Source: Oscillospiraceae bacterium
GTDB lineage: Bacteria; Bacillota; Clostridia; Oscillospirales; CAG-272
Assembly: GCA_015063545.1 (NCBI GenBank)
Contig: SVTX01000009.1
Coordinates: 1 to 57,037 of the forward strand
Direction of reading: 5' to 3'
Length of the DNA stretch: 57,037 nt
The notes under the pieces are model-generated. The model did not search any database. It worked only from the letters and a program-made list of their open reading frames with translations, and was not told where the DNA came from. Each line of letters opens with the position of its first letter. The stretch's first letter is position 1. Positions 9,743-49,586 of this stretch are shown piece after piece. Both the position numbers and the translations under genes were made by a program.

Positions 9743-9771
9743 TTGCAATTTACGGAACTTTGTGATACAAT
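9743..9771 (+). promoter_or_regulatory. Sigma-A promoter of the GH36-like gene
   Basis: TTGCAA, 17 bp, TACAAT, about 60 nt before the ATG. A nearby GGTAC...GTACC dyad (about 9694-9714) could bind a regulator. Confidence 0.6.
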
Positions 9772-9836
9772 ATAGATGTATATTCTTTTTTGAAGTACGA
9801 TTACCGACTATTTGCAAACATGCAAGGAGGATAATT

Positions 9837-11453
9837 ATGATAAGAGACATTAAAGCTGCTGCAGCATTTTACACGTCGAACGGCATTAAGGCTGACAGCG
9901 CACAGAACCCCAAGCTTGCTCAGTACCGCATAGAGCACGAAGAAGATACTTACAACTTGTATATAACATCGAAGTACGTTCCCGCGGGAGTATCTGTAAG
10001 AATTCCCGTTGAGACGGATGTCAGCGACACTGTGTTTATGAACGGATTTCAGTCGGCAACAGAGAGCCGCGAGCGCGGAGTAGTTGCAAAAATGAGCAAG
10101 GTCTCAACCGTTACGGAGTACATGCATCAAAAGCATTCTCAAAAGACGGGCGGAGATTATGACTTTGTTCCGTATAAGAACAAGCCGGGTATAACTCACG
10201 GTTTCTCATACTGTTATTTCAGACAGGGAAACAAAATAAGACTTTTTGCTTCGCTTGACGAGTCCACAGGATACACTGTGTTCAAGTACGATGCGTGGAG
10301 TGGAGTTCTTAAGGTCTCCAAGGACGTTACGGGAGTTCAAAAATTTGATAATTATAAGGCTATGTCGCTGTTCGAGGCAGAGGGAAGCGAGCAAGAGGTG
10401 TTTGAAAAATGGTTCAGCCTTCTCGCTAAAAGCGAAAACGCGCCTGCGGAAAGATTGGTCGGATATTCCACCAAAAAGCTTGCTTCTATAAATGAGGATA
10501 TAGTTTGTGAAAAGATAAACAGTATGTCGGAGTTTCCCACCGTGCCTAATATTTTCCTTGTGGAAGGCAAGTATTGTGAGGAGGGCGATTGGCTTAGATA
10601 CAGCCGCCGTAATTTCCCGATAGGAATGCGCGAGATATCCGATCTGATAAAGGAAAAGAACATGCTTTCGGGTATTGCTATATCTCCTTTTACGGTTGAT
10701 GAAAAATCCGGTGTTTTCAAAAACCACGGTGATTGGATACTCCGAATGCCCGATGGACGTTTTTGTAAGACCAAGGATGACAAATATATATTGGACAGTT
10801 CCAATACGGCTGTGCGCGAGTATGTCAGAGAGGTTCTCCACACGATACTCTTTATGTGGGGATTCGATCTTGTAAAGCTTGACAATCTGTACACGGCAGG
10901 AGTACTTCCTACCGACGGAAAGAGCCGCGGCGAGCTCATGTGTGACGCTATGAAGTTCTTGCGCGAATGTTGCGGAGGAAAGCTCATGTACGCTTCCGAC
11001 GTACCGCTTATGCCCGCATTTGGAATAGCAGACTATTGCTCTATAAGCTGTGGTGCAGTATCCGATAACGTTCCCAATATACTTTATTCCAAGAAGTTTT
11101 ACAGAGAGAGCGCGTCGGTCAAAAATGCTTCCGCAGATATCGTGTTCAGAAGAATGCTCGACAAAAGAGCATTCCTTAACGCACCCTGCGAGGTGTCTCT
11201 TTATGACAAGGATTTCTTCTTGGACGGCAATTTGAACAGCGCGGAACAAAACGTTCTTACTACGCTTGAGGGATTGTTTTCATCCGTACTCATAACGACG
11301 GACGACGTAACGAAGTACAATCAAAAGCAAAAGCGCAAATTTAAGAAGATGTGCTCGTTGACTACGGCAACGGATATCCGTATTCGTCGCGTTCCGTCAG
11401 GACACATGATAGGTTACAGACATGCCGGAAAGAGTTACGTTATTAAGTTCTGA
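9837..11453 (+). CDS. GH36-like alpha-galactosidase family protein
   Basis: A 538-residue predicted glycoside hydrolase. The first ~220 residues look like a beta-rich N-terminal domain; the rest fits a TIM barrel of the GH36/clan D type. Family-like signatures are EGKYCEEGDW (the loop before the first barrel helices), SGIAISPF, the HGDWIL segment, LDSSNTAVREYV and then FDLVKLDNLY, where Asp349 would be the nucleophile. It has no signal peptide, so it is probably cytoplasmic. It is shorter than most GH36 enzymes (about 700 residues) because the C-terminal domain is small, and the acid/base region (ADYCSISCGAVSDN) is divergent, so substrate is uncertain. The ATG at 9837 follows AAGGAGG by 6 nt. 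No sugar transporter is adjacent. Confidence 0.65.
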   Translation: MIRDIKAAAAFYTSNGIKADSAQNPKLAQYRIEHEEDTYNLYITSKYVPAGVSVRIPVETDVSDTVFMNGFQSATESRERGVVAKMSKVSTVTEYMHQKHSQKTGGDYDFVPYKNKPGITHGFSYCYFRQGNKIRLFASLDESTGYTVFKYDAWSGVLKVSKDVTGVQKFDNYKAMSLFEAEGSEQEVFEKWFSLLAKSENAPAERLVGYSTKKLASINEDIVCEKINSMSEFPTVPNIFLVEGKYCEEGDWLRYSRRNFPIGMREISDLIKEKNMLSGIAISPFTVDEKSGVFKNHGDWILRMPDGRFCKTKDDKYILDSSNTAVREYVREVLHTILFMWGFDLVKLDNLYTAGVLPTDGKSRGELMCDAMKFLRECCGGKLMYASDVPLMPAFGIADYCSISCGAVSDNVPNILYSKKFYRESASVKNASADIVFRRMLDKRAFLNAPCEVSLYDKDFFLDGNLNSAEQNVLTTLEGLFSSVLITTDDVTKYNQKQKRKFKKMCSLTTATDIRIRRVPSGHMIGYRHAGKSYVIKF

Positions 11454-11518: not shown

Positions 11519-14500
11519 ATGAAGAGAATTATCTTAATGTTAGCTACATGTGCAATAATAAGTGTGCTTTGCCTTGTAGGATGTAGCAAAAGGGATAAAA
11601 CACAGAAAATCACGGAAAGTAGTACGTCAACACCTACGCAAAGCGTGACAAACACACCGGGCGAGGATAAGTCTGACAAGTCTACAGAAAAGCCAACGGA
11701 GCAGGGAACGGAAGATGTTTCCGATAGCCCCACTGAAGATCCTACCGAATTGCCTACGGAAGATACCACGGAAAAACCAACCGAAAAACCTGATGAGCCT
11801 CATGTTTGCAAGAGATACAGATGGGTAGTGGTGCGTGAATCGACTTGCAGTACAAAGGGAGAAGGAAATTTTGTCTGTGAATGCGGTCAGATTGTGGAAA
11901 CTTTGGAAATTGATATGCTTGAGCACACATGGACAGACGCTACTTGCGAAAAAGCCAAGACGTGTTCCGCTTGTGGTAAGACATACGGAGCGCCACTTGG
12001 GCATACTTGTACAGAAGCAACCTGTACGTCTCCTAAAATATGTACTGTTTGTAATGCAGAAGTCGGAGAGGCGCTCGGTCATAGATATAATTCGGAAGTG
12101 ACAGCGCCCACATGCACGGATGCAGGTTATACGACATATACGTGTTCGGTTTGTGGAGATGCTTACTTGTCTGATGAGGTTGAGGCGCGAGGTCATGCAT
12201 GGATGGGAGCAACTTGTACCGTTCCTAAGACGTGCCGTGTTTGCAACGCAACAGAGGGCGAAGCAATCGGGCACAGACATGAATCGGTTGTTACTCTCCC
12301 GACGTGCACGGAAGGTGGATACACTACTTATATTTGTTATGCTTGCGGAGATATTTACATAGCAGATGAAGTTGACGCTGTTGGGCATACGGTAAAGGAA
12401 ATTGTCGCTATCCCCGCAACTTGTATACAAACAGGTCTTACGTCCGGCGCAGAGTGTTCTGTGTGCGGCGAAATACTCATACCGCAAGAAGAAGTTGACG
12501 CTCTTGGGCACAGTCATGAAGCAACAGTGACTGAACCCACGTGCACGGCAGGCGGCTACACGATTTATATGTGTTATGCCTGCGGTGATAATTACGTATC
12601 GGATGAGGTAGAGGCGCTTGGACACACCTGGACAGATGCGGATTGCACCGCCCCTAAGACATGTTCAATTTGTGCGGAGACCGAAGGCGAGTCACTTGGT
12701 CATAATTATAGCGCAGTCGAAATCAAGCCTACCTGTACCGAGGGGGGATATACAACACATACATGTTCCGCTTGCGGTGATGTTTATGTGACTGATGGAG
12801 TTGACGCTCTCGGACATGTAGCAAAAGAAATCCCCGCAATAGATGCAACTTGTACAGAAAAAGGTTTTACAGAAGGCTCCAAGTGTTCTGTTTGTAATGA
12901 AATACTTATTGTACAGGAAGAAATTCCAGCACTTGGTCACAATTATGAAACAACAGTGACAGTGCCTACGTGTACAGATATAGGCTATACAACTCATACG
13001 TGCTTCGTTTGTGGCTATACTTATATTTCGGATGAGGCAGAGGCACTTGGACACATCTGGACAGATGCCGATTGCATAACTCCAAAGACCTGCTCTGTTT
13101 GCGCAGAAACAGAGGGCGAGGCTCTTGGACACAGTTACGGCATAGCAGTAACAGAGCCAACCTGTACAGAAATAGGTTATACGACATATACGTGTTCTAT
13201 TTGTAATCATGCTTATATGTCAGATGAAACAGAGGCACTCGGCCATGCTTGGACGGATGCCGATTGTACAACACCAAAGACATGCTCCGTTTGTGGAGAA
13301 ACCGAAGGAAATGCACTTGGTCATAGCTATGAGGCGACAGTTACAGCGCCGACGTGCACTCAAAGCGGTTACACAACTTATACGTGTGCAGTATGCGGTG
13401 ATACATATATATCCGATGAAACCGATGCCATCGGACACATCGGGGAAAACGTAGTAATCGAGAATATTATAGATCCCACCTGTACGGAAAGCGGCTGTTG
13501 GGATATGGTAACATATTGTGTTGCATGCGACACCGAACTGGACAGACAGATAGTTCCCCTCCAAGCACTTGGACATTTCTTTGAAAATGCGACTTGCACC
13601 AAGCCTAAAACCTGTTATGTATGTGGTGAAACAGAAGGGGAGGCCATGGGTCACACCGAAGTAATCGATGAGGCAGTAGCTCCTGACTGCGAGAACACAG
13701 GTCTTACAGAAGGTAAGCACTGCTCGGTATGTGAAGAAGTTCTCGTAGCTCAGACAGTAGTTGATGCTCTTGGACACACTTGGGCAGGTGCAGATTGCAC
13801 CAAACCGCAAACATGCTCGGTGTGTGGCGCAGTTAACGGTGATGCACTTGGACATACTGAAGTGGTTGACGAGGCAGTAGCGCCCACATGTACGGCTACA
13901 GGTCTTACAGAAGGCAAGCACTGCTCGGTATGTGAAGAAGTTCTCGCAGCTCAGACAGTAGTTGATGCTCTTGGACACACTTGGGTAGGTGCAGATTGCA
14001 CCACACCGCAAACATGCTCGGTGTGTGGCGCAGTTAACGGTGATGCACTTGGACATACTGAAGTGGTTGACGAGGCAGTAGCTCCCACATGTACAGAGAC
14101 AGGTCTTACAGAAGGTAAGCACTGCTCTGTATGTGGAGAAGTCCTTGTAGCGCAGAACGTAGTTGACGCTCTCGGTCATACCGAAGTAATCGACGCGGCA
14201 AAAGCTCCCACATGTACAGAAACAGGTCTTACGGAAGGTAAGCACTGCTCTGTATGTGAAGCAGTCCTCGTAGCTCAAACAGTAGTTGACGCTCTCGGTC
14301 ATACCGAGGTAGCAGATGCAGCTGTAGCAGCAACATGTACAACAACAGGTCTTACCGCAGGTAAACACTGTTCGGTATGTGAAGAAGTTATCGTGGCTCA
14401 GGAAACAGTCGCAGCTCTCGGTCATACCGAGGTAGTTGACGCGGCAAAAGCTCCCACATGTACAGAAACAGGTCTTACAGAAGGTAAGCACTGCTCCGTA

Positions 14501-17500
14501 TGTGAAGAAGTTCTCGTAGCACAGGAAACAGTCGCAGCTCTCGGTCATACCGAGGTAGTTGACGCGGCAAAAGCTCCCACATGTACAGAGACAGGTCTTA
14601 CAGAAGGTAAGCACTGTTCTGTATGTGAAGAAGTCCTCGTAGCTCAGACAGTAGTTGACGCTCTCGGTCACACCGAAGTTGTTGACGCAGCTAAGGCGCC
14701 TACATGTACAGAAACAGGTCTTACAGAAGGTAAGCACTGCTCTGTATGTGAAGAAGTCCTCGTAGCTCAAACAGTAGTTGACGCTCTCGGTCACACCGAA
14801 GTTGTTGACAACGCAGTAGCTCCCACATGTACAGAAACAGGTCTTACAGAAGGTAAGCACTGCTCCGTATGTGAAGAAGTTCTCGTAGCGCAGGAAGTAG
14901 ACCCCGCGCTTGGACACACATACGCATCGGATTGCGATTCTGTTTGCGACAGCTGCGGATACGTAAGAGACGCGGTAGCAGAGCACACCTACGATAGCAT
15001 TTGTGATGGCGAATGTAATAGCTGCGGTGAGATCCGTGAGGCGGAACATCCGTCATTTGAGACCAAATATGCCGACAAGAATACCCACAACGTATGTTGT
15101 GAGGTATGCGGCGAGGTCATATCCGGCGCAGAGCACACGTATTCGGCCGGTGAGTGCACGGTTTGCGGAGCAACGAGCGCTGAGGCGATAGATCTTCTTG
15201 ACTTCACAATAGACGTTGAGCCGGGCAGGGACGTTGTCGTACTTCAGCTCACAGATACGCAGATAGTTGATTCCTCTCAGGCAAGATCCGAGAGCAGACT
15301 TGACGACGCGGCGGACGCCGCATGGGCTCCTGAAAAGGTTCAGTCGGTATGCTACGATTATATATCCCGAGCAGTACAAAAGTCATCTCCGGACTTCATA
15401 TTCATTTCCGGAGACATAGTGTACGGAGAATTTGACGACAACGGAAGTCAGCTCCAAGCGCTTGTTAATTATATGGATTCCTTTGAGATTCCGTGGGCTG
15501 CGGTTTACGGAAACCACGATAACGAATCAAAGATGTCTCCTACCTGGCAGAACGCGGTGCTCGCGCAAAGCAAGTACGGTATGTTTAAAAAGGGCGATAC
15601 CGACGGAAACGGAAACTACACCGTGGGTATTTTGCAGGGCGGAGAGCTCACCAGAGTGTTCTATATGATGGATTCCAATGGATGTAAGAATTTCACGCTT
15701 GATGCCGAACAGTACGGAATCATAAAGACACAGGGCTTTACGCAGGCGCAGGTTGATTGGCTTGCGGCAAGAATGCAGAGCTTAAAAGATCAGCTTGGCG
15801 GCAGAGTTGTTCCTTCGTCAATGGTTTACCACGTGCCCAGTAAGGAATTTTATCAGGCGGTACAAAAGTACACCGCGCAGGCATCGACCTTTACCATAAA
15901 CGATGAGGTCGTAGGCGACTACGGCGATAGCGGAACCTACGGCGCAAGCCTGAGTGGCGCGTTTACGGCTCCGAGCACTTCGGACGGCATGACATACCTT
16001 GAGCTTTTGAAGGCGAACGGAGTTGACAGTGTGTTCGCAGGACACTACCATAGCACCAGCACAAGCGTTCTCTGGGAGGGAATACGCTGGACTATGGGAC
16101 TTAAGACCGGTACGTACGTCGACTATGCAACCTATAGCGGCTATTCGGTAACCGGCGGTACGCAGATAACATTTGGAGATTCGGTTAACGTAAAGCATCT
16201 GTATCACAACCCAAGACTTCAGCTCAAGATGAATGATTTGAATCACACGTGGGTTGCCGCTACTTGCACAACCCCAAAAACATGTTCTGTATGTCAGAAA
16301 ACAGTGGGCGAAGCGCTCGGTCACACCGAAGAAACAATCTCTGCAGTTGATGCTACCTGTACAGAAACAGGTTTGAGCGCAGGAGTTAAGTGTTCCGTTT
16401 GCAGCGAGATACTTACAGCGCAGGAAACTGTTCCCGCTACAGGTCACAGAACAATCACGCTCCCCGTGGTTGCCCCCACGTGTACGGAGAAGGGATCCAG
16501 CGGTGGTAAGCAGTGCACGCTTTGCGGAAATATAGTGGAACAACCCACAGAAGTTCCCGCGCTCGGACACGCGTGGAGCTTGCAGACAAACGGTTCTTAT
16601 AAATGCGTGACAGATGGCGGCTGCGGAGGTTCTACGGCTGTGCCTGCGACGTATTTTAATGCTACAACGCTTTCAGCACCGACCACGGGAAATACCGGAA
16701 GCATTGTAAACAATACAAGTTACGCTACTTTTTCCGGGAACGGCATACATCAATATCACAACGGTGCTCAGGAACGATATATAGTAGTTCATTACAGAAC
16801 AAGTAATATCGGTACGAATTATCTTGTAACCACATATTACGACTACGGTTATGACAGTGATGCTCTTGCGACTACAAATTATATAAAAGACGGGCAGTGG
16901 CATGCAGTAATAATAGACATGAAATATCCCGTATCTCATTCGGACAACCAAGTGGTTTACGGTATGGTTGTTGACAACCTCAGCAAAGGAGGAAGCGTGG
17001 ATATTGCAGGAATAACCACTTTTGCAGATCTTGCGGATGCTCAGGAATATGCACAGATAGCCGAAAGCGTTGAGCCCGGTGCGGCAGTGGCACCGGAGGT
17101 TGTTATCCCAAACAAAATAGCATCGTCGTATGATTCATTTTACATAGGAAGCACCGAAACGCTTTACGGTGGATATTCCGGCGGAAGCGTTGGAAGCGTT
17201 AATGTCACAGGTGTTGATAAAAACAACGGAAATCTGACAATGGAAAACGTATATGCCGGCACATCTCTTACATTGTGGGGATGGATAGGATACGATCAGC
17301 CGATAGCATCGTTTGGATATTACTTTGACGGTAATAGCGACGCGGTTAGAAGAAGTACGGCATTGAACGCTGAGGATGCGGTAATTGCTATTGGAAAAGA
17401 ACATGCCAAGAGATTCAAAATTGCGGCAGATACAACTTCTCTGGACGGAGGAGAGCATACCCTGACATTTGTTATTTGCTTTGCTAACGGACATATAGAG

Positions 17501-18754
17501 ACATTATCTACCTGGAATATCAGCATAAAAGAGGAAGAAATCAATACCGACGTCAATATTAATGTCATGGCGGCGAACCTTGATCCGATGATGCAGCCCA
17601 TGTTCAAGAATAACACTCACATAGTCAACGAGACTGTAATGTTCATTGACTACGGAGACACCAAGTCACTTCTTTACAATGCGGATGAAATTGTTTCCGT
17701 AAAGTCGTATGACGGAAAGATCACTTATAAAAAGGGAGTTGACTGGGAACTTGTAAACGGTGATATAAAGATATTGCCCGGATCTTCAATGCCCTGTATT
17801 ACAAGCGCGGTATATTACGGAGGCCCGTCTTCGGGAATGCAGGATATTTGCTACACTTACAGAAACGGTGTTCTTACAAGCACCTACTGGGGCGAGGGTG
17901 ATCGCATGACAAAATGGCAGGTCAACGTAGAGTACAGGCACTCGGATACTTGGACCGGTTTTGAGCAGGAATGTAAAATAGGCTATTACGCAGACCTTAT
18001 CAACAAGCTGAACAACGGAGAGGATGTAACCGTGTTCTACTATGGAGACAGTATTACAGTTGGCGCAAATTCCAGCTGGAACGTAGGCATAGCGCCCTAT
18101 CAGTACAATTACGCTATGCTTGTGACACACGCGCTTGCAGATCTGTTTGAATATACGGTGGAATACGTTGATGCATCTTCACTCAACTCTATGATAAAAC
18201 CCGTTCCCACAACAAATTATGTGGGTGGAACGAAGGGAACTATCACATATATAAATACGGCAGTGGGCGGTTGGACTTCGCTTGACGGAGTAAACAACTT
18301 TGATAAACATGTAAAGCCCTATATTCAGCAATACGGATGCGATCTGTTTGTTGCCGCATTTGGCGGAAATGACGGCGGATGGTACGGAGAAACTACGGCA
18401 AGCTATGTCAGCACCATAGTTGATAATGTGTTAAAACTTACTCCCGATACCTCAGTTTTGATGGTAGCTACAATGGTGCCTAATCCCGGCGCGTATGCGT
18501 CTGCTTCCGGTGGCGCATGGTGTGGAACTCATACGACACAGGAAACTCAACTTATATCGGCTGCCGCAAACTATCGCTCCAAGGGTGTAGAATGCGCGGT
18601 CGCGCAGATGACGTCCATGAGCCTTTCAATATACGATCTCAAGGATTTTTGTGATTATACCGGAAACAACGTAAATCACCCCAACGATTTCTTTGGACGA
18701 GTATATGCTCAAACACTGCTCCAGACTTTGATAGGTTATGAGAATATGAAATAA
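11519..18754 (+). CDS. Giant lipoprotein: His/Cys repeat stalk, metallophosphatase and SGNH hydrolase
   Basis: A 2411-residue surface lipoprotein. The signal peptide ends in the lipobox CLVGC (acylated Cys near residue 22). A Thr/Pro/Glu linker (about 23-93) leads to some 33 stalk units (about 95-1225), each with one His and three Cys: short 26-residue units of the form HTWTDADC...CSVC and long 38-41-residue units such as HTEVVDAAKAPTC...HCSVC. A calcineurin-like phosphoesterase follows (about 1240-1565; metal motifs around Asp1246, GDIV with Asp1299, GNHDN with Asn1332/His1333, GHYH 1508-1511). Three to four more units (1577-1710), beta-rich regions and a C-terminal SGNH/GDSL hydrolase (about 2165-2411) complete it; Ser2178 in GDSITVG, Asn2284 in GGND and His2387 in NHPND are its catalytic residues. 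The partner gene follows after 18 nt. Substrates are unknown. Heads are assigned by motif, the stalk by repetition. Confidence 0.85.
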   Translation: MKRIILMLATCAIISVLCLVGCSKRDKTQKITESSTSTPTQSVTNTPGEDKSDKSTEKPTEQGTEDVSDSPTEDPTELPTEDTTEKPTEKPDEPHVCKRYRWVVVRESTCSTKGEGNFVCECGQIVETLEIDMLEHTWTDATCEKAKTCSACGKTYGAPLGHTCTEATCTSPKICTVCNAEVGEALGHRYNSEVTAPTCTDAGYTTYTCSVCGDAYLSDEVEARGHAWMGATCTVPKTCRVCNATEGEAIGHRHESVVTLPTCTEGGYTTYICYACGDIYIADEVDAVGHTVKEIVAIPATCIQTGLTSGAECSVCGEILIPQEEVDALGHSHEATVTEPTCTAGGYTIYMCYACGDNYVSDEVEALGHTWTDADCTAPKTCSICAETEGESLGHNYSAVEIKPTCTEGGYTTHTCSACGDVYVTDGVDALGHVAKEIPAIDATCTEKGFTEGSKCSVCNEILIVQEEIPALGHNYETTVTVPTCTDIGYTTHTCFVCGYTYISDEAEALGHIWTDADCITPKTCSVCAETEGEALGHSYGIAVTEPTCTEIGYTTYTCSICNHAYMSDETEALGHAWTDADCTTPKTCSVCGETEGNALGHSYEATVTAPTCTQSGYTTYTCAVCGDTYISDETDAIGHIGENVVIENIIDPTCTESGCWDMVTYCVACDTELDRQIVPLQALGHFFENATCTKPKTCYVCGETEGEAMGHTEVIDEAVAPDCENTGLTEGKHCSVCEEVLVAQTVVDALGHTWAGADCTKPQTCSVCGAVNGDALGHTEVVDEAVAPTCTATGLTEGKHCSVCEEVLAAQTVVDALGHTWVGADCTTPQTCSVCGAVNGDALGHTEVVDEAVAPTCTETGLTEGKHCSVCGEVLVAQNVVDALGHTEVIDAAKAPTCTETGLTEGKHCSVCEAVLVAQTVVDALGHTEVADAAVAATCTTTGLTAGKHCSVCEEVIVAQETVAALGHTEVVDAAKAPTCTETGLTEGKHCSVCEEVLVAQETVAALGHTEVVDAAKAPTCTETGLTEGKHCSVCEEVLVAQTVVDALGHTEVVDAAKAPTCTETGLTEGKHCSVCEEVLVAQTVVDALGHTEVVDNAVAPTCTETGLTEGKHCSVCEEVLVAQEVDPALGHTYASDCDSVCDSCGYVRDAVAEHTYDSICDGECNSCGEIREAEHPSFETKYADKNTHNVCCEVCGEVISGAEHTYSAGECTVCGATSAEAIDLLDFTIDVEPGRDVVVLQLTDTQIVDSSQARSESRLDDAADAAWAPEKVQSVCYDYISRAVQKSSPDFIFISGDIVYGEFDDNGSQLQALVNYMDSFEIPWAAVYGNHDNESKMSPTWQNAVLAQSKYGMFKKGDTDGNGNYTVGILQGGELTRVFYMMDSNGCKNFTLDAEQYGIIKTQGFTQAQVDWLAARMQSLKDQLGGRVVPSSMVYHVPSKEFYQAVQKYTAQASTFTINDEVVGDYGDSGTYGASLSGAFTAPSTSDGMTYLELLKANGVDSVFAGHYHSTSTSVLWEGIRWTMGLKTGTYVDYATYSGYSVTGGTQITFGDSVNVKHLYHNPRLQLKMNDLNHTWVAATCTTPKTCSVCQKTVGEALGHTEETISAVDATCTETGLSAGVKCSVCSEILTAQETVPATGHRTITLPVVAPTCTEKGSSGGKQCTLCGNIVEQPTEVPALGHAWSLQTNGSYKCVTDGGCGGSTAVPATYFNATTLSAPTTGNTGSIVNNTSYATFSGNGIHQYHNGAQERYIVVHYRTSNIGTNYLVTTYYDYGYDSDALATTNYIKDGQWHAVIIDMKYPVSHSDNQVVYGMVVDNLSKGGSVDIAGITTFADLADAQEYAQIAESVEPGAAVAPEVVIPNKIASSYDSFYIGSTETLYGGYSGGSVGSVNVTGVDKNNGNLTMENVYAGTSLTLWGWIGYDQPIASFGYYFDGNSDAVRRSTALNAEDAVIAIGKEHAKRFKIAADTTSLDGGEHTLTFVICFANGHIETLSTWNISIKEEEINTDVNINVMAANLDPMMQPMFKNNTHIVNETVMFIDYGDTKSLLYNADEIVSVKSYDGKITYKKGVDWELVNGDIKILPGSSMPCITSAVYYGGPSSGMQDICYTYRNGVLTSTYWGEGDRMTKWQVNVEYRHSDTWTGFEQECKIGYYADLINKLNNGEDVTVFYYGDSITVGANSSWNVGIAPYQYNYAMLVTHALADLFEYTVEYVDASSLNSMIKPVPTTNYVGGTKGTITYINTAVGGWTSLDGVNNFDKHVKPYIQQYGCDLFVAAFGGNDGGWYGETTASYVSTIVDNVLKLTPDTSVLMVATMVPNPGAYASASGGAWCGTHTTQETQLISAAANYRSKGVECAVAQMTSMSLSIYDLKDFCDYTGNNVNHPNDFFGRVYAQTLLQTLIGYENMK
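13652..14053 (+). repeat. Tandem 201-bp repeats in the stalk coding region
   Basis: Two nearly identical 201-bp units (starting 13652 and 13853), each encoding one 41-residue and one 26-residue His/Cys unit. Confidence 0.85.
14054..14914 (+). repeat. Seven tandem 123-bp repeats in the stalk coding region
   Basis: Seven in-frame copies with exact 123-bp period (unit starts at 14054, 14177, 14300, 14423, 14546, 14669, 14792). Each encodes a 41-residue unit beginning HTEV and containing TCT...[11 protein letters not shown]. Copies are near-identical in DNA, so recombination or slippage could change their number. Confidence 0.9.
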
Positions 18755-18772
18755 ATTACAGGGAGAAATGTT

Positions 18773-21700
18773 ATGAAAAACATGTTAAAGCTTATAGTGA
18801 TAGTGCTTGTTTTGATGTCGGCAATAATGATTTTTGTGTCGTGCGGCGAAGACGAGCCTACTTCTGACACGGAGGGTGTCTCTACTGAGGCGCCAACGGA
18901 AGAACCCACAGAAGATCCTACGGAAGATCCCACAGAAGGCCCCACGCAGGCTCCTACTGAAAAGCCCTCAGATGATCCTACAGACAAGCCGAGTGAGAAT
19001 TGTGAGCATACATACACAAATGACTGTGATGCTGATTGTAACAAGTGCGGTGAGATAAGAGAGGTTTCTCATACAGAAGAAACAATCCCCTCTGCTCCCG
19101 CGACATGTACAGAAACAGGGTTGAGTGTAGGAGTGAAGTGCTCCGTTTGCGGCGAGATACTTACAGCGCAAGAAGTTATTCCTGCACTTGGACACAACGA
19201 AGTTGTTGACGAGGCAGTAGCACCTGATTGTGTAAACGCAGGCCTTACAGAGGGTAAGCACTGTTCTGTATGTAATGAAATTCTCACAGTGCAGGAGGTG
19301 GTCAATGCTCTTGGGCATACAAACGAGAAGATGTCGGCAGTAAAGCCCACCTGTACAGAGACGGGTCTCACAGAAGGTGTTAAATGTTCTGTCTGTAACA
19401 CGGTGCTTGTGGTGCAGGAAATCCTCCCTGCCAAAGGACATACAAGCGTAGTTGTCGGAGGCAAGGAGCCGACGTGTACAGAGACCGGTATCACAGAAGG
19501 CGCTAAATGCGCTATCTGCGATGAGGTGCTCAAAGCGCAAAATGAGATCCCGGCGCTCGGACATACATGGGTAGATGCAACCTGCACTGTTTCTAAAACC
19601 TGCTCTGTTTGCGGTGCAGCAGAGGGCGAGTCTCTCGGTCATACATATACCGACGGCAACGATTCGTCCTGTAATGTTTGCTCTGAGGAAAGATACGGCA
19701 ACAAGGTGGGCGACGTTTGTTATCCCGCGGACCTCACCACTTATGATGGCGGAACATTCAATATATTACAGTCCAGAGGAAAGATAACGGTTATAAATTT
19801 CTGGTATGCCACATGCTGGTATTGTGTCGAAGAGATGCCTTGGTTTGATTCTGTTGCATACGAGGTTTCTGACAAGGTGACGGTTTTGGCAGTTAATCCG
19901 TTTGAAGGTGGAAGGGAATTCGTTGAGCAAAATTATCCTCACTCTAAGATAGTGTTTGCAGATGATTTTGATATTGACGGCAGTCAGACTTATTATAAAA
20001 TGCTTTTGCCCGACGTTTTAGAAGAATACCCAGGCGGAGCATATCCCGTTACCGTTATACTTGACGAGAACGGTGTGATTTTGGAAAAACACGTTGGGTA
20101 TATGTCGTATGAAGAACTTAAAGGCAAAATAATCAGCGCATTGGGCGGTTGTCCTCATATATATGATTTTGCTTGTTCCGCATACTGTAATTGGTGCAAC
20201 GAAGAGAGAGTCCCCGCGGATCACGAGATAGTTGAGGCAACATGCACCCTTGGAAAGCATTGCAGCGTTTGCGGTGAAACCTGGAGCGAACCTCTCGGCC
20301 ATACTGAGACGGTTGTGCCTAGCAAGGCTGCTACTTGCGTGACTGCAGGACTTACTGAAGGTTTAAGTTGTTCTGTTTGCGGGGAAATCCTCGTTGCTCA
20401 GGAAGAAACTCCCGCTACAGGTCACACCGAAGTTGTTGATGTGGCAGTAGCGCCCACATGCACGGCAACCGGTCTCACAGAAGGCTCGCACTGTTCCGTT
20501 TGTGGAGAAGTTCTTGTAGCGCAGGAAGAAATCCCCGCGCTCCCTCACACCTACGACAGTGATTTTGACAGGGAATGCAACGTTTGCGGATATATAAGAG
20601 CGATTGCGGCAAACGTTGAGATTAATGATATTATGAAAGACATGTATTCGGGTAATACCATGAAATATGAGACCGTGATGTTTATTGATTACGGTGAGTC
20701 AAAGCAGCTTTTGTTCTATGCCGATGATATAGTTTCCGTTCAGTCTTACGACAGAACCAAAACATACGTTGAAGGTGTTGACTACGCCCTTGTTGACGGA
20801 TGCATAGTTCTTCTTGAAGGCTCGTCAATTCCTTGCATAACCGGCAAGGTTTATTATGGCGGACCCGCAGCGGGAATGCAGGATATTTGTTACACAAAGG
20901 ATGAAAGCGGCAGGCTCGTAAGCACTTATTGGGGAGAAGGCGACTCCATGACAAAGTGGCAGGTAAACGTCGAATATACTCATTCCGATGCATGGACAGG
21001 ATTCAAGCAGGAGACCGCGACCGAAAGATACTCTGACTTTATTGCAAAGCTTGAACGCGGCGAGGACGTGACAGTATTCTTCTACGGAGACAGTATTACG
21101 GTTGGCGCAAATGCGAGTGGATACTTCGGCACAGCCCCCAATCAGCCTCAATATACGTTTTTGGTAGTTGACACGCTTGCGCGTATGTACGGATATTCTG
21201 TACAGCATGCAAAAGCAAAGACCGGAGATCCTACTCCTATTGAAAGCATGAATTACGGTGACAGAGGTACGATCACTTATATTAACACCGCTGTTGGCGG
21301 ATGGCAGAGCACAAACGGAGTTTCTTCTTACGGAACGGCGCGTGGATCCGTTGAGCCCTATATCAATAAGTACGGATGCGACTTGTTTATTGTCGCGTTT
21401 GGAATGAACGACGGAGGTTTAGCCCCCGCAACAACGAAGGGAAATATTAAGACTATAATTGATAATACCATAGCTCTTGCTCCCGACTGCGCGTATCTTA
21501 TAGTTTCCACCATGCTTCCCAATCCCGATGCATATAACTCTGCGGCGGGCGGCAAATGGCTTGGAAATCAGCCCTATCAGGAAGCGCAGCTGCTTGCGCT
21601 TGCAGAGGAATATATGGCAGACGGTGTTGCTTGCGCGGTCGCGCAGATGACGTCTATGAGCTCATCCATTCTTAACCGTAAGGACTTTTTGGATTATACG

Positions 21701-21793
21701 GGTAATAACATAAATCACCCCAACGATTTCTTCAGCCGTGTTTACGCGCAGAATGTAATTCAGACCTTGATAGGTTATGAGAATATAGCATAA
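18773..21793 (+). CDS. Lipoprotein: His/Cys repeat stalk, thioredoxin-like domain and SGNH hydrolase
   Basis: A 1006-residue paralogue of the preceding protein. The signal peptide ends with the lipobox FVSC (Cys near residue 24) and a Thr/Pro/Glu/Asp linker follows (26-80). Seven His/Cys units (about 81-310) come before a TlpA/ResA-like thioredoxin domain (about 312-462) with active site C348-W-Y-C351 after INFWYAT and a cis-Pro-type segment [10 protein letters not shown]. Five more units (465-615) lead to an SGNH hydrolase (about 620-1006) closely similar to that of the upstream protein: GDSITVG with Ser774, GMND, NHPND. The same DNA context (GCCGGTCGCGCAGATGAC-like stretch, TTGATAGGTTATGAGAATAT end) shows the C-terminal domains were duplicated. 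Probably cotranscribed with the upstream gene (18-nt gap) and ended by a strong terminator. Function is inferred as extracellular thiol chemistry plus deacylation of a surface polymer. Confidence 0.85.
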
Positions 21794-29154: not shown

Positions 29155-30726
29155 ATGTCAAGAAAACCTATGCCCAAAAACACTCTGAGTGCGGGGCAAC
29201 GAGCTGCCGCGTACGAGCAACAGCAGAAAATCAAGGTGGAGCGGCTTTCGGAAAATAATGAGGAGAAAGCAGACGTGAAAGCTGTAAATCCCGGTATCAA
29301 CGCAGAAAAAGAAACCGTTGTCGCCCCAACTGAAAATATCAAGCTTTCACCTCAAAAGCAAAAAGAAAAGCCTCAGCTCCAAACTGTGAAGGTGGATCTG
29401 GGAGTAAAGATTGGACAAGCCCAAAAGTTGCATGGCGTATGTAACGGCCCGCTGTCTCAAAGCGCGGATATTTCAAAATTGTTGAAGGATATACATGTTC
29501 CGTATATCAGGTTTGATAAAACAGAGGGAGCAAGGTCGGGATACGTAGTAGATATATCCAAGGTGTTTCCAAATATGGATGCCGATGAACGTGATCCCCA
29601 AAGCTACAGCTTCAGACAGACGGATATTCACATGCTTGCCGCAGCAAATACGGGAGCGAAAATAATATTCAGGCTGGGAGAGAGCTTTGATATAGGTACT
29701 CCTGAGCATAAATTCAAGCTTTACGAAAGCTACGATAAGATCACGACGGTATGTGTTAATATTATAAAACATTACAACGATTATTGGGCAAACGGATTTG
29801 CGCTTGGAATAGAGTATTTTGAGGTGTTGTCTCATACCGACATACAGGCGGTAAGAGAGGTAAATACCGATACGGAGATATTTGAGCTTTATGCGAGAAT
29901 AGCTAATGGCATAAAGCTTTATGACGATAAATTGCGCGTGGGCGGAATGAGCTTTTCCTCTCCGTCGCAATTCGTCAGAGATTTTATAAGAGAATGCAAA
30001 AAGAGAAATGCGCCCATGGACTTTTTGAGTATTTCATTGTATGATACAACTCCCGAGGCTATGGGTGAGCATATAGAGCAGTATGTACATATACTAAAGA
30101 ATTCAAGCTATGCCAACGCACAGATTATTGTAAGCGAGTGGGCATATATGCCGCTTGTGGCAGATATGCGTGAGGCGTCGAATATATTGAATACGAAATC
30201 CCGAGAGAGTGCGGAAAAACGGAGAGATTTTTTCGAGTATCATAAGAACATATACGGCGCGGCATTTGTTGCGGCGGGACTTTTGAAAATGCTTGAGTAT
30301 CCAGAGATATCTGCGGCATGTCTGTACAGCGCCGAGGCAGATTCTCTGTGGTGCGGTATTTGTGACAGATTCGGAATACCTCAAAAGCCGTATTACGCAC
30401 TTGACAGCTTTGCAAAGCTTGTCAGCGCGGGGGAGAGAATACTGTGTGTAAGTGAGCAGGACAGCGCGTATGCTCACTCCGGAATTTATGCGGCAGCATG
30501 CGGCGCTCAAGGGAGCGCTTGCGTAATGCTTGCGGCGTTTGACGGATGTACGTCGGTAGATTTAAGACTTGACAACATTCCGGATGATGTTTATACGGCG
30601 GATATATATATGCTGGACGGTGTAAAGAATATGGAGCTTTGTCATTCCATACAACTGTCGGGAATGAAAAAGAGAATGGTCTTAAATATAAGCCCTTATT
30701 CCGTTGTTTTTATCAAAATATACTGA
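29155..30726 (+). CDS. GH39-like protein with a replaced catalytic acid/base
   Basis: A 523-residue protein without signal peptide. After a ~85-residue hydrophilic, Lys/Glu/Gln-rich N-terminal part comes a clan GH-A TIM barrel with GH39 (beta-xylosidase) marks: HGVCNGPLSQ, IRFD, FPNMDADERDPQSYSF, IIFRLGES, and a nucleophile-type Glu328 in IVSEWAYMP. The acid/base position differs: the usual EVWNEP reads E223-V-L-S-H-T, so Asn is Ser226 and the catalytic Glu is His227. The C-terminal ~120 residues are a beta domain as in GH39. The protein may be inactive as a retaining glycosidase, may bind sugar, or may use another residue. RBS AAGGAG 8 nt before the ATG. Follows the M29 gene. Confidence 0.75.
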   Translation: MSRKPMPKNTLSAGQRAAAYEQQQKIKVERLSENNEEKADVKAVNPGINAEKETVVAPTENIKLSPQKQKEKPQLQTVKVDLGVKIGQAQKLHGVCNGPLSQSADISKLLKDIHVPYIRFDKTEGARSGYVVDISKVFPNMDADERDPQSYSFRQTDIHMLAAANTGAKIIFRLGESFDIGTPEHKFKLYESYDKITTVCVNIIKHYNDYWANGFALGIEYFEVLSHTDIQAVREVNTDTEIFELYARIANGIKLYDDKLRVGGMSFSSPSQFVRDFIRECKKRNAPMDFLSISLYDTTPEAMGEHIEQYVHILKNSSYANAQIIVSEWAYMPLVADMREASNILNTKSRESAEKRRDFFEYHKNIYGAAFVAAGLLKMLEYPEISAACLYSAEADSLWCGICDRFGIPQKPYYALDSFAKLVSAGERILCVSEQDSAYAHSGIYAAACGAQGSACVMLAAFDGCTSVDLRLDNIPDDVYTADIYMLDGVKNMELCHSIQLSGMKKRMVLNISPYSVVFIKIY

Positions 30727-34467: not shown

Positions 34468-34510
34468 AGGGATGTTCTGATTTTAGTGGATGAACTCGCT
34501 GAAATAATTC

Positions 34511-34645
34511 GCGGGTATGTGCGGACTTTTCCGCCATACTCCACTCATTTCATTCGCGGGTATGTGCGGACTTTTCCGCCATACTCTACTCATTTCATTC
34601 GCGGGTATGTGCGGACTTTTCCGCCATACTCTACTCATTTCATTC
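34511..34645 (+). repeat. Three tandem 45-bp hairpin repeats copied from the tRNA-Leu 5' end
   Basis: Units start at 34511, 34556 and 34601, and the tRNA itself starts at 34646 on the same 45-bp period. Each unit begins GCGGGTATG, as the tRNA does, then TGCGGACTT, then TTCCGCCATAC, which is the exact reverse complement of tRNA bases 5-15 (GTATGGCGGAA), then a spacer ending CATTTCATTC. Each unit can fold on itself or pair with the tRNA. The copies differ at one position (CCACT in the first, CTACT in the others). Confidence 0.9.
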
Positions 34646-34730
34646 GCGGGTATGGCGGAATTGGCAGACGCATAAGATTTAGGATCTTACGCCAAACGGT
34701 GTGCAGGTTCGACCCCTGTTACCCGCACCA
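34646..34730 (+). tRNA. tRNA-Leu (anticodon UAG)
   Basis: An 85-nt class II tRNA with CCA encoded. The acceptor stem is GCGGGTA/TACCCGC followed by ACCA. The D arm contains GGCGGAATTGGCAGACGC, the anticodon stem is TAAGA/TCTTA, and the loop TTTAGGA carries TAG at 34680-34682. A short variable arm is followed by the T arm CAGG...TTCGACC...CCTG. It reads CUA and other CUN leucine codons. It stands alone rather than in a tRNA cluster. Confidence 0.97.
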
Positions 34731-45167: not shown

Positions 45168-48100
45168 ATGAAAAAACTGATTGTAGCATTTTTGCTTATT
45201 TTTGCATTGTCGCTGTGCTTGGTTGCGTGCGGAGAAGGCAGTTCTGCCGATGAATCCGGGCAAACATCCGCGACCAAGCCTACGGACGAGCCCACTGTGC
45301 TTCCTGATGAAAGGCCGACGGATGATTCTACAGCTACTCATGTTTGCAAAGGCGTAAAGTGGACGGTAACCAAAGAAGCTACTTGCGCTAACAAGGGCGA
45401 AAAATCCTTTGTTTGCGAGTGTGGAGAGGTAGTTGAAACCGAGGAAATTGCGACACTTAGTCACACTCCCGGCGCAGAGGCAACTTGTACTACTGCGCAG
45501 ACGTGTACTGTGTGTAGCGCCGAGCTTGTAAAAGCGCTCGGACATACCCCCGGTGCAGAAGCGACTTGCACTACAGCACAGATATGCACTGTATGTAATA
45601 CAACGCTTGTGGGAATAAAAGGCCATACCCCCGCAGCTGAGGTGAGCTGTACGGCTACTCAAAACTGCATTGATTGCGGTGTGGTTCTCATGCCCGCAAA
45701 AGGCCATACTCCCGGTGCAGAGGCAACTTGTACAACAGCTCAGACGTGTACTGTGTGTAGCGCCGAGCTTGTAAAAGCGCTTGGTCATACTCCCGGCGCA
45801 GAAGCGACTTGCACTACAGCACAGATATGTACTGTATGTAATACAACGCTTGTAGGAATAAAAGGTCATACCCCCGAAACTGAGGTGAGCTGTACGGCTA
45901 CTCAAAACTGCATTGATTGCGGTGTGGTTCTTGCGCCCGCAAAGGGACATACACCCGGAGCAGAGGCAACTTGTACGACTGCGCAGACGTGTGTTGTATG
46001 TCAAGCAGAGCTTGTAAAAGCCCTCGGGCATACTCCCGGCGCAGAGGCAACTTGTACGACAGCGCAGACGTGTACTGTATGTAAAACTGAGCTTGTAAAA
46101 GCACTCGGACATACCCCCGGAGCAGAAGCAACTTGTACTACTGCGCAGATTTGTACCGTTTGTAATATAACGCTTGCAGGGATAAAAGGTCATACCCCCG
46201 AAACTGAGGTGAGCTGTACGGCTACTCAAAACTGCATTGATTGCGGTGCGGTTCTCATGCCCGCAAAAGGTCATACTCCCGGCGCAGAGGCAACTTGTAC
46301 GACTGCGCAGACGTGTGTCGTTTGTCAAACAGAGCTTGCCCCCGCATTCGGACATACACCGGGGGCGCATGCCACTTGTATAACGGCGCAGGTTTGTACT
46401 GTTTGCGGTGTGGAACTTGATAGCGCATTTGGTCATTTGTATTTGGCTGATTGCGATACAACGTGTAATGTGTGTGGTATTGAACGAGAAGTTATAGCGG
46501 AACATATTTATGCCGATACTTATGCAGCTAACTGCAGTTTGTGCAGAGCTAAAAATCCGATTACATACGATGGCGGTGAGGTAACTATCACTTTCTATCA
46601 TACGATGAACGCAAGATACCAGATGGTTTTGGATAAGTATATTGACAAGTTCAATCAAATGTATCCTAACATCACCGTTAAACATACCCAAGCCGGCGGC
46701 TACGACGAGGTTCGTGATCAGATAAAGGCAGATATTGTGAACGGCACACAGCCTAATATTGCTTATTGCTATCCCGATCATGTGGCTATTTACAACATAG
46801 CAAAGGCGGCAGTTCCGCTTGACAGTCTTATTAATAGCGAAATTGTTGTTACCGATGCTAATGGCAATAAGACTTTTCTTGGTCTTACCGACGAGCAGAA
46901 GGCAGACTTTATTCCCGCCTTTTACGAGGAGGGCGCGGTATATGACGATGTCGGTACGATGTACACACTCCCCATGTCTAAGTACACAGAGGTTCTTTAT
47001 TACAACAAGGACTTCTTCACAAAGCACAACCTCACAGTTCCCACAACATGGGAAGAAATGGAGGCTCTTTGCGAGAGGATAAAGGAGATAGATCCCAACT
47101 GTATTCCTCTCGGATATGACTCTGAGGGAAACTGGTTTATCAATATGTGCGCTCAATACAACTCGCCTTATACAAGCAACACGGGCAATCATATTCTCTT
47201 TAATAATAATACTAACCGCAGTTTTGTAAAAATGATGTCGGAATGGTATGCGAAAGGTTACGTAACCACTCAAGAGCTTTACGGCGGTTACACATCCGGT
47301 CTCTTTACAGAGCTTAGCGGCAAGAAGTGCTATATGTCCATCGGTTCTACCGGCGGCGCTATTCACCAATGCCCCTCAAGGACCGACTACGGCTACGCAT
47401 TTGACGTTGGAATTGCGCCCATTCCTCAGATGAATCCCGAAGAAGGTAAGATTCTCTTCAGTGGTCCCTCGCTCTGTATATTGGATAGCGAAGATCAGCA
47501 AGAAGTAATTGCTTCTTGGCTCTTTATGGAATTTCTTACAACAAACAAGGAGTTTCAGGCTGAATTTTCTATGATATCCGGTTACATGCCCGTTATCAAG
47601 TCTGTTGACCAGGTTGACGCTTACAAGAACTTCATTGCGGGCGCAAACGGCGGATCTAACATTCAGGCGCTCGCAGTTAAGGTTGCGAGAGGCATGTCGG
47701 ATTGCTATTTCACACCTGATGCATTTGTAGGTTCAGATTATGTGCGCTATGCGGTCGGATATATGGTAGCAAAGTGCATGTCCGGATATACGGAAGCGGC
47801 AGATAAGGATGCGTTTATCAGAAAAATTTTTGATGAATATTACCAAGACTGCATATCATACGTCGGCGAAGGAGAATCTACCACTGATGATGAGATATAT
47901 GCGGCTGCGGAGTTTCTTGATCAACTTTACAAAGACCTCTATCACACGGAAAACAGTTATGATGTCATATCATGTATATCGATGAATGGCAAGTCTTACG
48001 ATATCACTTGGTCTTCTTCCTCAAGTCTGATTACACTGACTGATAACCATGACGGTAGTATAACTGTCAACATTCCCGGCGGTCACTGCGATGATATATA

Positions 48101-49586
48101 CTATACTCTTACTGCATCGTTGAGCGACGGTAATGGTAATGTGGTAATCAAAAAGTTTGCTCTTTTAGCAAGATTGGCAGGCGCAACGCATAGTGAATAC
48201 ATCGCTGCACAATCAGGTGATTCTATTATTGTTAAAGGCATTGTAACGGGTATAGTTTCAAAATCCAATGGAGCTACAAGCAACTGCCTATATCTTCAGG
48301 ATATAGATAAAGACGGCGGTTACTACATTTACGGTATGACCGAAGACCCGATCGCTATGGGTATTGAGATCGGTATGACAGTAAGAGCTTCCGGTACAAA
48401 GGATATCTACAACGGTACTCACGAAGTTAAGCCCAACGATGTAAAGATCGTAAGCACAGAAAAGACAGCAGTAACTCCCATAGATATTACAGAAGCATAC
48501 CAGAATGCAGAAGATCTCAAGGCTCAAGAACTCTTTAACCTCCAAGGCGCACTTGTAACCATCAAGGGTGTTGAGATCACAGACCAGACAGCGAGTAGCG
48601 GTTACTACAACTTTGTTCTTGCAGGCAAGACATCTTACATCAGAATTTCCAGCTCTACTTGCGCTATCAATAAGGCAGATCAGACTACATTTGCAGCAAA
48701 TCATACAGCAAATCGCGGAAATACAGCAGATGCTACAGGTATAGTTTGCGTATATAACGGCGCTATTTATCTCGTTCCCGTAACTGTTGACGCGTTCAGC
48801 AACTTCCAGTTAGCTGAACGTACAGATGCGGAGAAGGTTGAATACGAGGCAGGCAATATTACAGTTGATTCTGCTATTCACAGCAATAAGACAATCACAC
48901 TCCCCGTAGTTGGTGCAACATACTCCAACGTTACTATCTCCTGGGTATCCGATAACGCATGCGCAGTAGTTGACGGCGGCAACATTACATTCACGCTCCA
49001 GGATGAGGCACAGACAGTTAAGCTCACAGCTACTATCACTCTCGGTGAGAACACAGCAACAAAGGAATTCACAATCACTGTTGACGCAAAGCCCACAGTA
49101 GTTCCTTCCGTAGTTGAAACTCCCGCAGCTGATACAGCATACAAGTTCTTCGTAGCTCAGAACAATCTTGGCCAGACACTCTACCTCGACGGTGGGGTTG
49201 ATGGCAGATACCTTACAACAACAACTGATGTAACTGAGGCTATCGACGTATACGCAGAGGCAGTTGACGGAGGATTCAAGTTCTATATTCTCGTTGACGG
49301 AGCAAAGCAGTATATCGAAGTATACAACAACGCAGAAAACAAGCTTTCCGTTCAGTACAACGCTGAAGGTGCTTCTGTTTACACTTACAATGCAGAAACA
49401 GATGCATGGGCGACTACATTTGATGGCAAGGAGTACTACCTTGGCACATACAGCACTTTTGCCACGGTAAGCGCATCTGCTAAGTCTTACATCAATGCAG
49501 GCAATACTCACGCATCTCAGTTCCCCATGGAGCTTGCTACATTGGTAGACATCGCTGACTGCGCGCACGTATATTCCGGCGATTGA
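45168..49586 (+). CDS. Giant lipoprotein: His/Cys repeat stalk, ABC solute-binding domain and beta domains
   Basis: A 1472-residue lipoprotein. The signal peptide ends in LVAC (Cys near 20), followed by a Thr/Asp/Pro linker. A first long unit (about 55-98) has the same form as the first unit of the 2411-residue protein (HVCKxxxWxVxxEATC). Twelve exact 27-residue His/Cys units (99-422, HTPGAEATCTTAQTCTVC type) and two degenerate units follow. A bacterial solute-binding protein domain of the sugar type comes next (about 465-900; NARYQMVLDKYIDKFNQMYP, VLYYNKDFFTKHNLTVPTTWEEM, PLGYDSEGNW). After that are an OB/DUF5689-like region (about 1008-1215), an Ig-like region (1225-1310) and a last beta domain. 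The chain ends DCAHVYSGD, like the start of another stalk unit. ATG 45168 follows GGAGG by 8 nt. No permease or ATPase gene is near. Confidence 0.85.
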   Translation: MKKLIVAFLLIFALSLCLVACGEGSSADESGQTSATKPTDEPTVLPDERPTDDSTATHVCKGVKWTVTKEATCANKGEKSFVCECGEVVETEEIATLSHTPGAEATCTTAQTCTVCSAELVKALGHTPGAEATCTTAQICTVCNTTLVGIKGHTPAAEVSCTATQNCIDCGVVLMPAKGHTPGAEATCTTAQTCTVCSAELVKALGHTPGAEATCTTAQICTVCNTTLVGIKGHTPETEVSCTATQNCIDCGVVLAPAKGHTPGAEATCTTAQTCVVCQAELVKALGHTPGAEATCTTAQTCTVCKTELVKALGHTPGAEATCTTAQICTVCNITLAGIKGHTPETEVSCTATQNCIDCGAVLMPAKGHTPGAEATCTTAQTCVVCQTELAPAFGHTPGAHATCITAQVCTVCGVELDSAFGHLYLADCDTTCNVCGIEREVIAEHIYADTYAANCSLCRAKNPITYDGGEVTITFYHTMNARYQMVLDKYIDKFNQMYPNITVKHTQAGGYDEVRDQIKADIVNGTQPNIAYCYPDHVAIYNIAKAAVPLDSLINSEIVVTDANGNKTFLGLTDEQKADFIPAFYEEGAVYDDVGTMYTLPMSKYTEVLYYNKDFFTKHNLTVPTTWEEMEALCERIKEIDPNCIPLGYDSEGNWFINMCAQYNSPYTSNTGNHILFNNNTNRSFVKMMSEWYAKGYVTTQELYGGYTSGLFTELSGKKCYMSIGSTGGAIHQCPSRTDYGYAFDVGIAPIPQMNPEEGKILFSGPSLCILDSEDQQEVIASWLFMEFLTTNKEFQAEFSMISGYMPVIKSVDQVDAYKNFIAGANGGSNIQALAVKVARGMSDCYFTPDAFVGSDYVRYAVGYMVAKCMSGYTEAADKDAFIRKIFDEYYQDCISYVGEGESTTDDEIYAAAEFLDQLYKDLYHTENSYDVISCISMNGKSYDITWSSSSSLITLTDNHDGSITVNIPGGHCDDIYYTLTASLSDGNGNVVIKKFALLARLAGATHSEYIAAQSGDSIIVKGIVTGIVSKSNGATSNCLYLQDIDKDGGYYIYGMTEDPIAMGIEIGMTVRASGTKDIYNGTHEVKPNDVKIVSTEKTAVTPIDITEAYQNAEDLKAQELFNLQGALVTIKGVEITDQTASSGYYNFVLAGKTSYIRISSSTCAINKADQTTFAANHTANRGNTADATGIVCVYNGAIYLVPVTVDAFSNFQLAERTDAEKVEYEAGNITVDSAIHSNKTITLPVVGATYSNVTISWVSDNACAVVDGGNITFTLQDEAQTVKLTATITLGENTATKEFTITVDAKPTVVPSVVETPAADTAYKFFVAQNNLGQTLYLDGGVDGRYLTTTTDVTEAIDVYAEAVDGGFKFYILVDGAKQYIEVYNNAENKLSVQYNAEGASVYTYNAETDAWATTFDGKEYYLGTYSTFATVSASAKSYINAGNTHASQFPMELATLVDIADCAHVYSGD
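45462..46433 (+). repeat. Twelve tandem 81-bp repeats in the stalk coding region
   Basis: Twelve 81-bp units in exact period, each coding 27 residues with one His and three Cys. Three subtypes cycle (CTVCSAEL..., CTVCNTTL..., CIDCGVVL...), showing that a 243-bp block was duplicated after the basic unit. Confidence 0.92.

Follow-up and report, generated by a model that had tools for sequence, protein, structure and literature searches.

What are the cysteines for in an exported bacterial protein that carries 125 of them? The question is raised by a 57,037-nucleotide stretch of DNA from an Oscillospiraceae bacterium (assembly GCA_015063545.1, contig SVTX01000009.1; hereafter the window), one whole contig of a 1.83-Mb genome, in which three genes encode predicted lipoproteins, here called A, B and C, with tandem arrays of a short unit rich in His and Cys. 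Obligate anaerobes tend to keep cysteine out of their exported proteins, as stated in the available part of PMC12453122. The pattern of ligands along the arrays suggests that the units are structural modules that bind metal, most likely zinc, outside the cell, and that the arrays are stalks in which each ion staples two neighbouring units, a reading to which we give a probability of about two in three. It would explain Cys-rich exported proteins of anaerobes, the thiols serving as ligands and not as disulphide partners.

Three predicted lipoproteins and their repeat

The N-termini of A, B and C are hydrophobic and lead to a lipobox-like Cys (at residue 22, 24 and 21, respectively, as read from the sequence), after which come a linker of Thr, Pro, Asp and Glu and then tandem H-x(n)-C-x(m)-C-x2-C units, of which a regular expression counts 35 in A, 10 in B and 13 in C. 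This common plan had been claimed for the genes at 11519, 18773 and 45168 in an earlier note made from the letters alone, together with some 33 units and a different set of heads in each protein, and the description holds throughout: the genes, lipobox Cys, acidic Thr/Pro linkers and tandem units are all in place, the first array of A has 33 Cys-Cys knuckles when counted from its list of cysteines, and a domain scan finds metallophosphatase and SGNH heads in A (the latter below threshold), thioredoxin-like and SGNH heads in B, and a solute-binding domain in C. The features, all on the forward strand, are as follows.

11519..18754, +, protein A (2411 residues, 125 Cys), predicted lipoprotein with two His/Cys arrays, a metallophosphatase head and an SGNH head (open reading frame, domain scan, unit count)
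11519..11584, +, signal peptide of A with lipobox-like Cys22 (read from the sequence)
11801..15166, +, array 1 of A, 33 knuckles, with a His-x-Cys cap (PHVC) first and a last unit without the middle Cys (HTYSAGECTVC) (Cys list, parser)
15239..16054, +, metallophosphatase head of A, PF00149 (E 1.4e-9)
16241..16624, +, array 2 of A, three units and then a last H-x11-C-x5-C module, no cap seen (Cys list, parser)
18044..18505, +, SGNH/GDSL head of A, PF13472 (E 1e-6; 29.8 bits, under the Pfam cut-off of 32.9)
18773..21793, +, protein B (1006 residues, 46 Cys), predicted lipoprotein with two arrays, a TlpA/ResA-like thioredoxin head and an SGNH head (open reading frame, domain scan)
19001..19681, +, array 1 of B, with a Cys-x-His cap, a small unit, four long units, one short unit and a last unit without the middle Cys (Cys list; AlphaFold2 model of residues 76-308)
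19709..20107, +, Redoxin/AhpC-TSA head of B with a CWYC motif (E 8.4e-8)
20150..20587, +, array 2 of B, with a Cys-x-His cap and a last unit without the middle Cys (Cys list, parser)
21074..21550, +, SGNH/GDSL head of B (E 1.1e-8)
45168..49586, +, protein C (1472 residues, 64 Cys), predicted lipoprotein with an array of short (27-residue) units, a solute-binding domain and an aBig_2 domain (open reading frame, domain scan)
45339..46544, +, array of C, with a His-x-Cys cap, 12 profile-scored units and a last unit without the middle Cys (Cys list, profile; AlphaFold2 model of eight units)
46629..47630, +, solute-binding domain of C, PF13416/PF01547 (SBP_bac_8; E 9e-33)
48846..49088, +, aBig_2 domain of C, PF20578 (E 9.1e-15)

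The units are 41, 38 or 26-27 residues long, with a smaller H-x5-C-x3-C-x2-C type besides, and are aligned on a GH pair, a middle Cys and a CxxC knuckle. In 106 repeat proteins, themselves chosen for carrying it, the long-unit pattern is found 1210 times, whereas 50 shuffles made within 60-residue blocks give 3.7 on average and 9 at most. One His and three Cys per unit, as first described, is the commonest form but not the only one, since His-His-Cys-Cys and His-Cys-Cys-His (HHCC and HCCH) forms occur too. Enrichment of the HCCH form was considered and dropped, its loose pattern lying not above the shuffles (11 against 24.1) and the form resting on the similarity among ten cases, of which three are identical. 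In the DNA, some neighbouring units are near-identical (6.9 copies at a period of 123 bp, with 85% matches, and 2.4 copies at a period of 201 bp, with 93%), a sign of recent tandem expansion. A scan of A, B and C against Pfam and NCBIfam places no family on the repeat units at its cut-off. The nearest family, C1_1, a zinc-binding domain of the phorbol-ester type, falls short of membership (E 0.015, 15.6 bits against a cut-off of 26.5; residues 1576-1630 of A, two units of array 2), and the G5 family has no match at E 0.1 in any of the three. The repeat is real, abundant and uncurated.

A proposed ligand register along the arrays

Where the cysteines stop is as regular as where they occur. Among the 106 repeat proteins parsed (20 from this genome and 86 from the named loci L058-L135; 1584 units), the middle Cys is present in 1260 of 1308 units that have a following unit and in 7 of 76 last units (Fisher p 5.5e-76), the test leaving out 161 units called ambiguous (118 with and 43 without the Cys), 39 at sequence edges and the antisense frame L125_m0. 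In 51 of the 55 loci having a last unit, all last units are Cys-less. This loss is specific, since long-type last units keep the Gly four residues on in 27 of 30 cases and the middle Cys in 3 of 30. The His, counted by a looser parse, is found in 126 of 128 last segments and 1229 of 1233 interior segments. Within the window, four of the five array ends clearly lack the middle Cys, and the H-x11-C-x5-C end of array 2 in A fits the rule only if C-x5-C is taken for the knuckle; of the five, the parser calls three last and two ambiguous.

A second rule concerns the unit that comes next. An extra Cys beside the His occurs in 19 of 31 units that come after a unit without the middle Cys and in 6 of 1265 that come after a unit with it (p 2.4e-29), and such a cap (CEH, CPH or HVC) stands at the start of four of the five window arrays. 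One locus, L135, has another short H...CxxC module in long tandem, which lies outside the cap rule and supplies 5 of the 12 uncapped cases; its frame L135_p0 was excluded, as a different module, from the broad cap count only. The HHCC form, with a His in the place of the middle Cys, occurs in 14 strict cases against none in 50 shuffles, for a pattern picked after examples had been seen, and units that follow one with a His in this place are mostly capless (13/19). Taken together, the end rule, the cap rule and the His swaps suggest that the His/CxxC site of unit i+1 is completed by a ligand from outside it, either the middle Cys of unit i or a cap, so that a single unit probably does not supply all four ligands of its site.

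The criterion for a last unit has a history. An earlier last-unit test, in which 68 of 128 kept the Cys, had lumped true ends together with modules that have a knuckle other than CxxC, and the final parser, which demanded no Cys in the next 42 residues, was set after that test had been seen. Because the criterion was set after the fact, the unchanged code was run on loci not used before, comprising 19 proteins from 20 regions in 18 genomes of other families. In this held-out set the middle Cys is present in 209 of 233 followed units and in 1 of 29 last units (p 2.9e-22); 22 of the 29 ends come from a single protein type, to the eye one set of orthologues bearing two array ends each, and the held-out ends are thus not independent. 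An extra run on two loci of the same family (L148 and L152) gave too few ends to count, the Cys being kept in 1 of 3. Counts of ligand loss from profiles seeded by the regular expression were discarded as circular, since the seed forces the ligands. In these data the end rule is firm and the cap rule less so.

Metal, disulphide and a proposed stapled stalk

AlphaFold2 gives a confident fold for a fragment of four long units of B, the size of fragment that the earlier note had proposed for modelling, with a predicted local distance difference test score (pLDDT) of about 97-98, and for eight short units of C (mean 90.6). In the models, each CxxC forms a hairpin in which one strand ends at the first Cys and the next begins soon after the second; judged from strand positions alone, there are three strands per long unit (E27-30, E45-48, E54-56 and so on) and two clear ones per short unit.

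Whether such units are zinc knuckles or disulphide-stabilised modules had been left as an alternative, of which the former half gains ground, in the guise of an ordered metal-type module with ligand swaps, confident CxxC-hairpin models and array-end rules, and the latter loses it. Each unit has an odd number of Cys and an invariant His, and the disulphide-forming families VKOR (PF07884), DsbB (PF02600) and DSBA (PF01323) are each found in 0 of 30 family genomes, the present one included, 25 of which carry the repeat; 3, 6 and 8 of 14 control genomes, respectively, are positive for them. The DsbD-type membrane domain is present in 4 of the 30 family genomes, this genome not among them. The absence of these families argues against disulphides, while three Cys and an invariant His per site, together with the Cys-to-His swaps, point to metal, for which zinc is the likeliest candidate by ligand type.

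In the arrangement proposed, each unit would give one His and its CxxC hairpin to its own metal site, and the fourth ligand would be the middle Cys, sometimes a His, of the preceding unit. The cap Cys (CxH or HxC) would stand in for the predecessor missing at the start of an array, and the last unit would have no middle Cys because nothing follows it. An ion held between neighbours, in whatever geometry the four ligands may adopt, would stiffen and protect the chain without disulphides; and with a putative lipid anchor at the N-terminus and a disordered Thr/Pro linker, the presumably stiff and long rod would keep hydrolases, a thiol oxidoreductase or a solute-binding domain off the membrane and might display them beyond the wall. 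A more far-reaching version, which we hold to be rather unlikely, is that of interlocked, metal-gated rods, where the chain would fold as a zipper from the anchored end outward while leaving the cell and would be loosened by metal withdrawal. If it were true, a host or competitor that withdrew metal would change the reach of the enzymes, and an anaerobe would have an extracellular scaffold in which metal does the work of disulphides.

Several observations weigh against the stapled stalk. The cap rule is weak in the held-out set (4/24 against 4/209, p 0.0047), to which one locus, L167, alone supplies five uncapped exceptions, and in the main set a cap is present in only 31 of 119 first units, or 49 of 122 if His-x-His is allowed, some capless first units coming after modules missed by the parser. 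The middle Cys is retained in seven last units, four of them in one protein, and six reverse ends, with the middle Cys and no knuckle, occur in two loci. Structure searches returned no clear match. The nearest described domains, ZBD1 and ZBD2, belong to the immunoglobulin A (IgA) protease of Thomasclavelia ramosa (UniProt Q9AES2; PMC12237041), and the flexibility seen by small-angle X-ray scattering in the C-terminal part of that protease, which contains them, does not favour a stiff rod; the available text of PMC12237041 attributes it to linkers, and that of PMC12402451 to C-terminal beta domains. SdbA of Streptococcus gordonii and oxidants of its type, moreover, belong to the AhpC/TSA family according to the part of PMC12453122 at hand, and an oxidant of this family falls outside the scan for VKOR, DsbB and DSBA.

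This last point bears on the rival in which the modules are disulphide-stabilised or redox-active and are oxidised by a non-canonical thioredoxin-like head. The units are Cys-rich and exported, a TlpA/ResA-like head that could in principle oxidise thiols sits in B itself, and a Redoxin head occurs in a further repeat frame (L036); the His in every site, its exchange with Cys and the missing oxidant families nevertheless speak against it, as does the T. ramosa protease, for which the accessible text of PMC12237041 reports no disulphides, either seen or predicted, and we regard oxidised modules as very improbable. A metal site closed inside each unit, formed by its own His, middle Cys and CxxC, would yield beads on a string with no stapling; the four residues adjoin in sequence and the pattern reads naturally in this way, but the loss of exactly the middle Cys from last units, in the held-out loci too, and the compensating Cys in the next unit would be left unexplained, making a closed site improbable.

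The arrays may instead serve chiefly to store or trap metal at the surface, be it zinc or another thiophilic ion, with display secondary, as might be argued from the roughly 36 CxxC or CxC knuckles of A alone, the 88 units of another frame and a headless lipoprotein-like protein made of units; set against this, the three window arrays and those of nine of 17 other frames lie in frames with recognised heads, and fixed four-ligand sites with ordered predicted folds look structural and not labile, leaving such a store little credence. Metallothioneins have a higher Cys density than the repeats, and a metallothionein was ruled out on this ground and by the ordered models. Tandem iron or Fe-S sites for electron transfer, to which weak rubredoxin matches had drawn attention, were also rejected, the spacing being 23-35 Å if the dimensions of ZBD1 apply, which is too far for direct electron transfer.

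Heads, distribution and known relatives

A two-unit query matches 104 places in the genome. In 20 regions around such matches and in the window there are 20 open frames with at least two regular-expression units (three in the window), holding 344 units in total; three of the regions (L041, L048 and L050) have no such frame. The Cys content of these frames is 1.7 to 8.6 per 100 residues, and most have signal-peptide-like starts. The largest, with 4264 residues, 88 units and 334 Cys (L042:2-12793, +, on contig C66 of the same genome), is cut at the contig start and has no Pfam head at E 0.001. The headless protein mentioned above (L047:2396-2848, -) has 150 residues, with His-x-His at its start and no middle Cys in its last unit.

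Recognised heads are present in all three window proteins and in nine of the 17 other frames; the remaining eight, several of which are cut by contig ends, show no family at E 0.001. The heads joined to arrays in this genome include metallophosphatase, SGNH, TlpA-like thioredoxin, solute-binding, NAGPA (phosphodiester glycosidase), CHAP, SASA (sialate-acetylesterase-type), CotH kinase-like, Cthe_2159 carbohydrate-binding and polysaccharide-deacetylase/leucine-rich-repeat domains. In L037, matches to InvE_AD (E 7.1e-11) and a delta-endotoxin C-terminal family exceed their cut-offs with no single stretch passing, and are not relied on. The SGNH head of A is 59% identical to the end of B, and the head of B is found in 9 of 39 genomes, its own included. 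In the five inspected, which are genus- or family-level relatives and not strains, it stands beside 10 units in B itself, 3 in G399 and, by regular expression, none in G404, G402 and G414; the head does not need the stalk. The varied heads, and the occurrence of this one with and without units, bear out the picture of a stalk with exchangeable heads.

Beyond this genome, a 15-row profile (A2) at E 1e-6 was run on genomes sampled at three ranks, and finds the repeat in 25 of 30 for the family, 43 of 196 for the class and 13 of 398 for the phylum, the own genome counted in each. Among the best 78 of 471 named loci with the repeat, all are from metagenome-assembled genomes, with titles that are mostly Clostridia, Oscillospiraceae, Lachnospiraceae and other Firmicutes, and many come from animal guts; the remark in the earlier note that such repeats are common in gut Clostridia agrees with this wide occurrence in Clostridia-type gut bins among the loci listed. 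Four of these loci (L062, L124, L131 and L059) lie on contigs with Bacteroidota-type titles, possibly through transfer between phyla or through a binning error; L062 has a near-threshold type IX secretion system (T9SS) sorting tail (21.1 bits, the cut-off being 23), and the C-terminal tail of L131 resembles that of L062. A repeat frame of 27,536 residues in the relative G418 was dismissed, since part of the stretch reads N, and N opens frames.

Elsewhere in the window, genes neighbouring the repeat proteins have Melibiase-type (9762-11450) and GH39-type (29155-30723) glycoside hydrolase matches, and 3.4 copies of a 45-bp repeat (34507-34659, 98% matches) run into a tRNA-Leu gene at 34646-34730.

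If the stapled stalk is correct, it would define a domain family for a repeat now below the Pfam and NCBIfam cut-offs, and a widespread class of surface protein, so far unannotated, would gain a plausible role. Modules of this kind, needing no oxidation, could serve as building blocks for display on anaerobes.

Among known systems, the T. ramosa IgA protease is the closest. As described in the accessible text of PMC12237041, ZBD1 and ZBD2 have predicted zinc sites at subdomain interfaces, with two His and two Cys or three Cys and one His as ligands, and are possibly a novel metal-binding fold pending validation, no density having been seen for them; ZBD1 spans 110 Å over 129 residues, and both domains are dispensable for catalysis, which fits a spacer role. 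Like the repeats, they belong to an exported Firmicute protein and consist of small tandem subunits, the subdomains being three-stranded and antiparallel. Their ligand sets have counterparts here in the HCCC, HHCC and HCCH forms, and sites between neighbouring subdomains have one in the ligand statistics alone. A unit profile (A1) searched against PDB sequences with hmmsearch matches two stretches of the protease chain 9qa6 (E 0.023), which ranks fourth among 41 weak matches, an eS27 and ZBTB20 zinc fingers scoring better. The protease differs in having two to three subdomains, against up to 33 units in the window (88 in one frame), and a sortase-type anchor where the window proteins have an N-terminal lipobox; its sites are predicted with no unit-to-ligand rule in the text available. 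Extracellular zinc modules had been thought unusual and such repeats without described function; with these domains in print as putatively zinc-binding since 2025, a zinc module of this kind outside the cell is no longer a new idea. No description of long arrays or of ligand sharing was found in the open-access literature searched, and a stalk outside the cell in which metal staples one unit to the next is, as far as could be seen there, not known.

As stalks, the arrays may be compared with the G5-E (B) repeats of staphylococcal SasG/Aap, whose G5 sequence family is not found here. They also resemble fibrillar adhesins and 'periscope' proteins, whose stalks vary in length (PMC9210967), in having tandem stalk units, near-identical neighbours and a unit number that differs among related proteins, here 10, 3, 0, 0 and 0 units beside the SGNH head of B in five genomes. 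Unlike in fibrillar adhesins, the window heads are enzymes or a binding protein (the domain scan finds no adhesive head domain in A, B or C), the predicted anchor is a lipobox at the N-terminus, and the units match no Pfam stalk family at its cut-off.

As putative metal sites, the units resemble zinc ribbons and rubredoxin-type knuckles, with which they share a CxxC hairpin between two strands and weak profile matches (to eS27 and rubredoxin). Zinc ribbons have two knuckles per site; here each site would have one knuckle, a His and a borrowed Cys, in an extracellular protein and in long tandem arrays. Stalk repeats and structural zinc modules are each already known, and what is new is the register in which the ligands would be shared.

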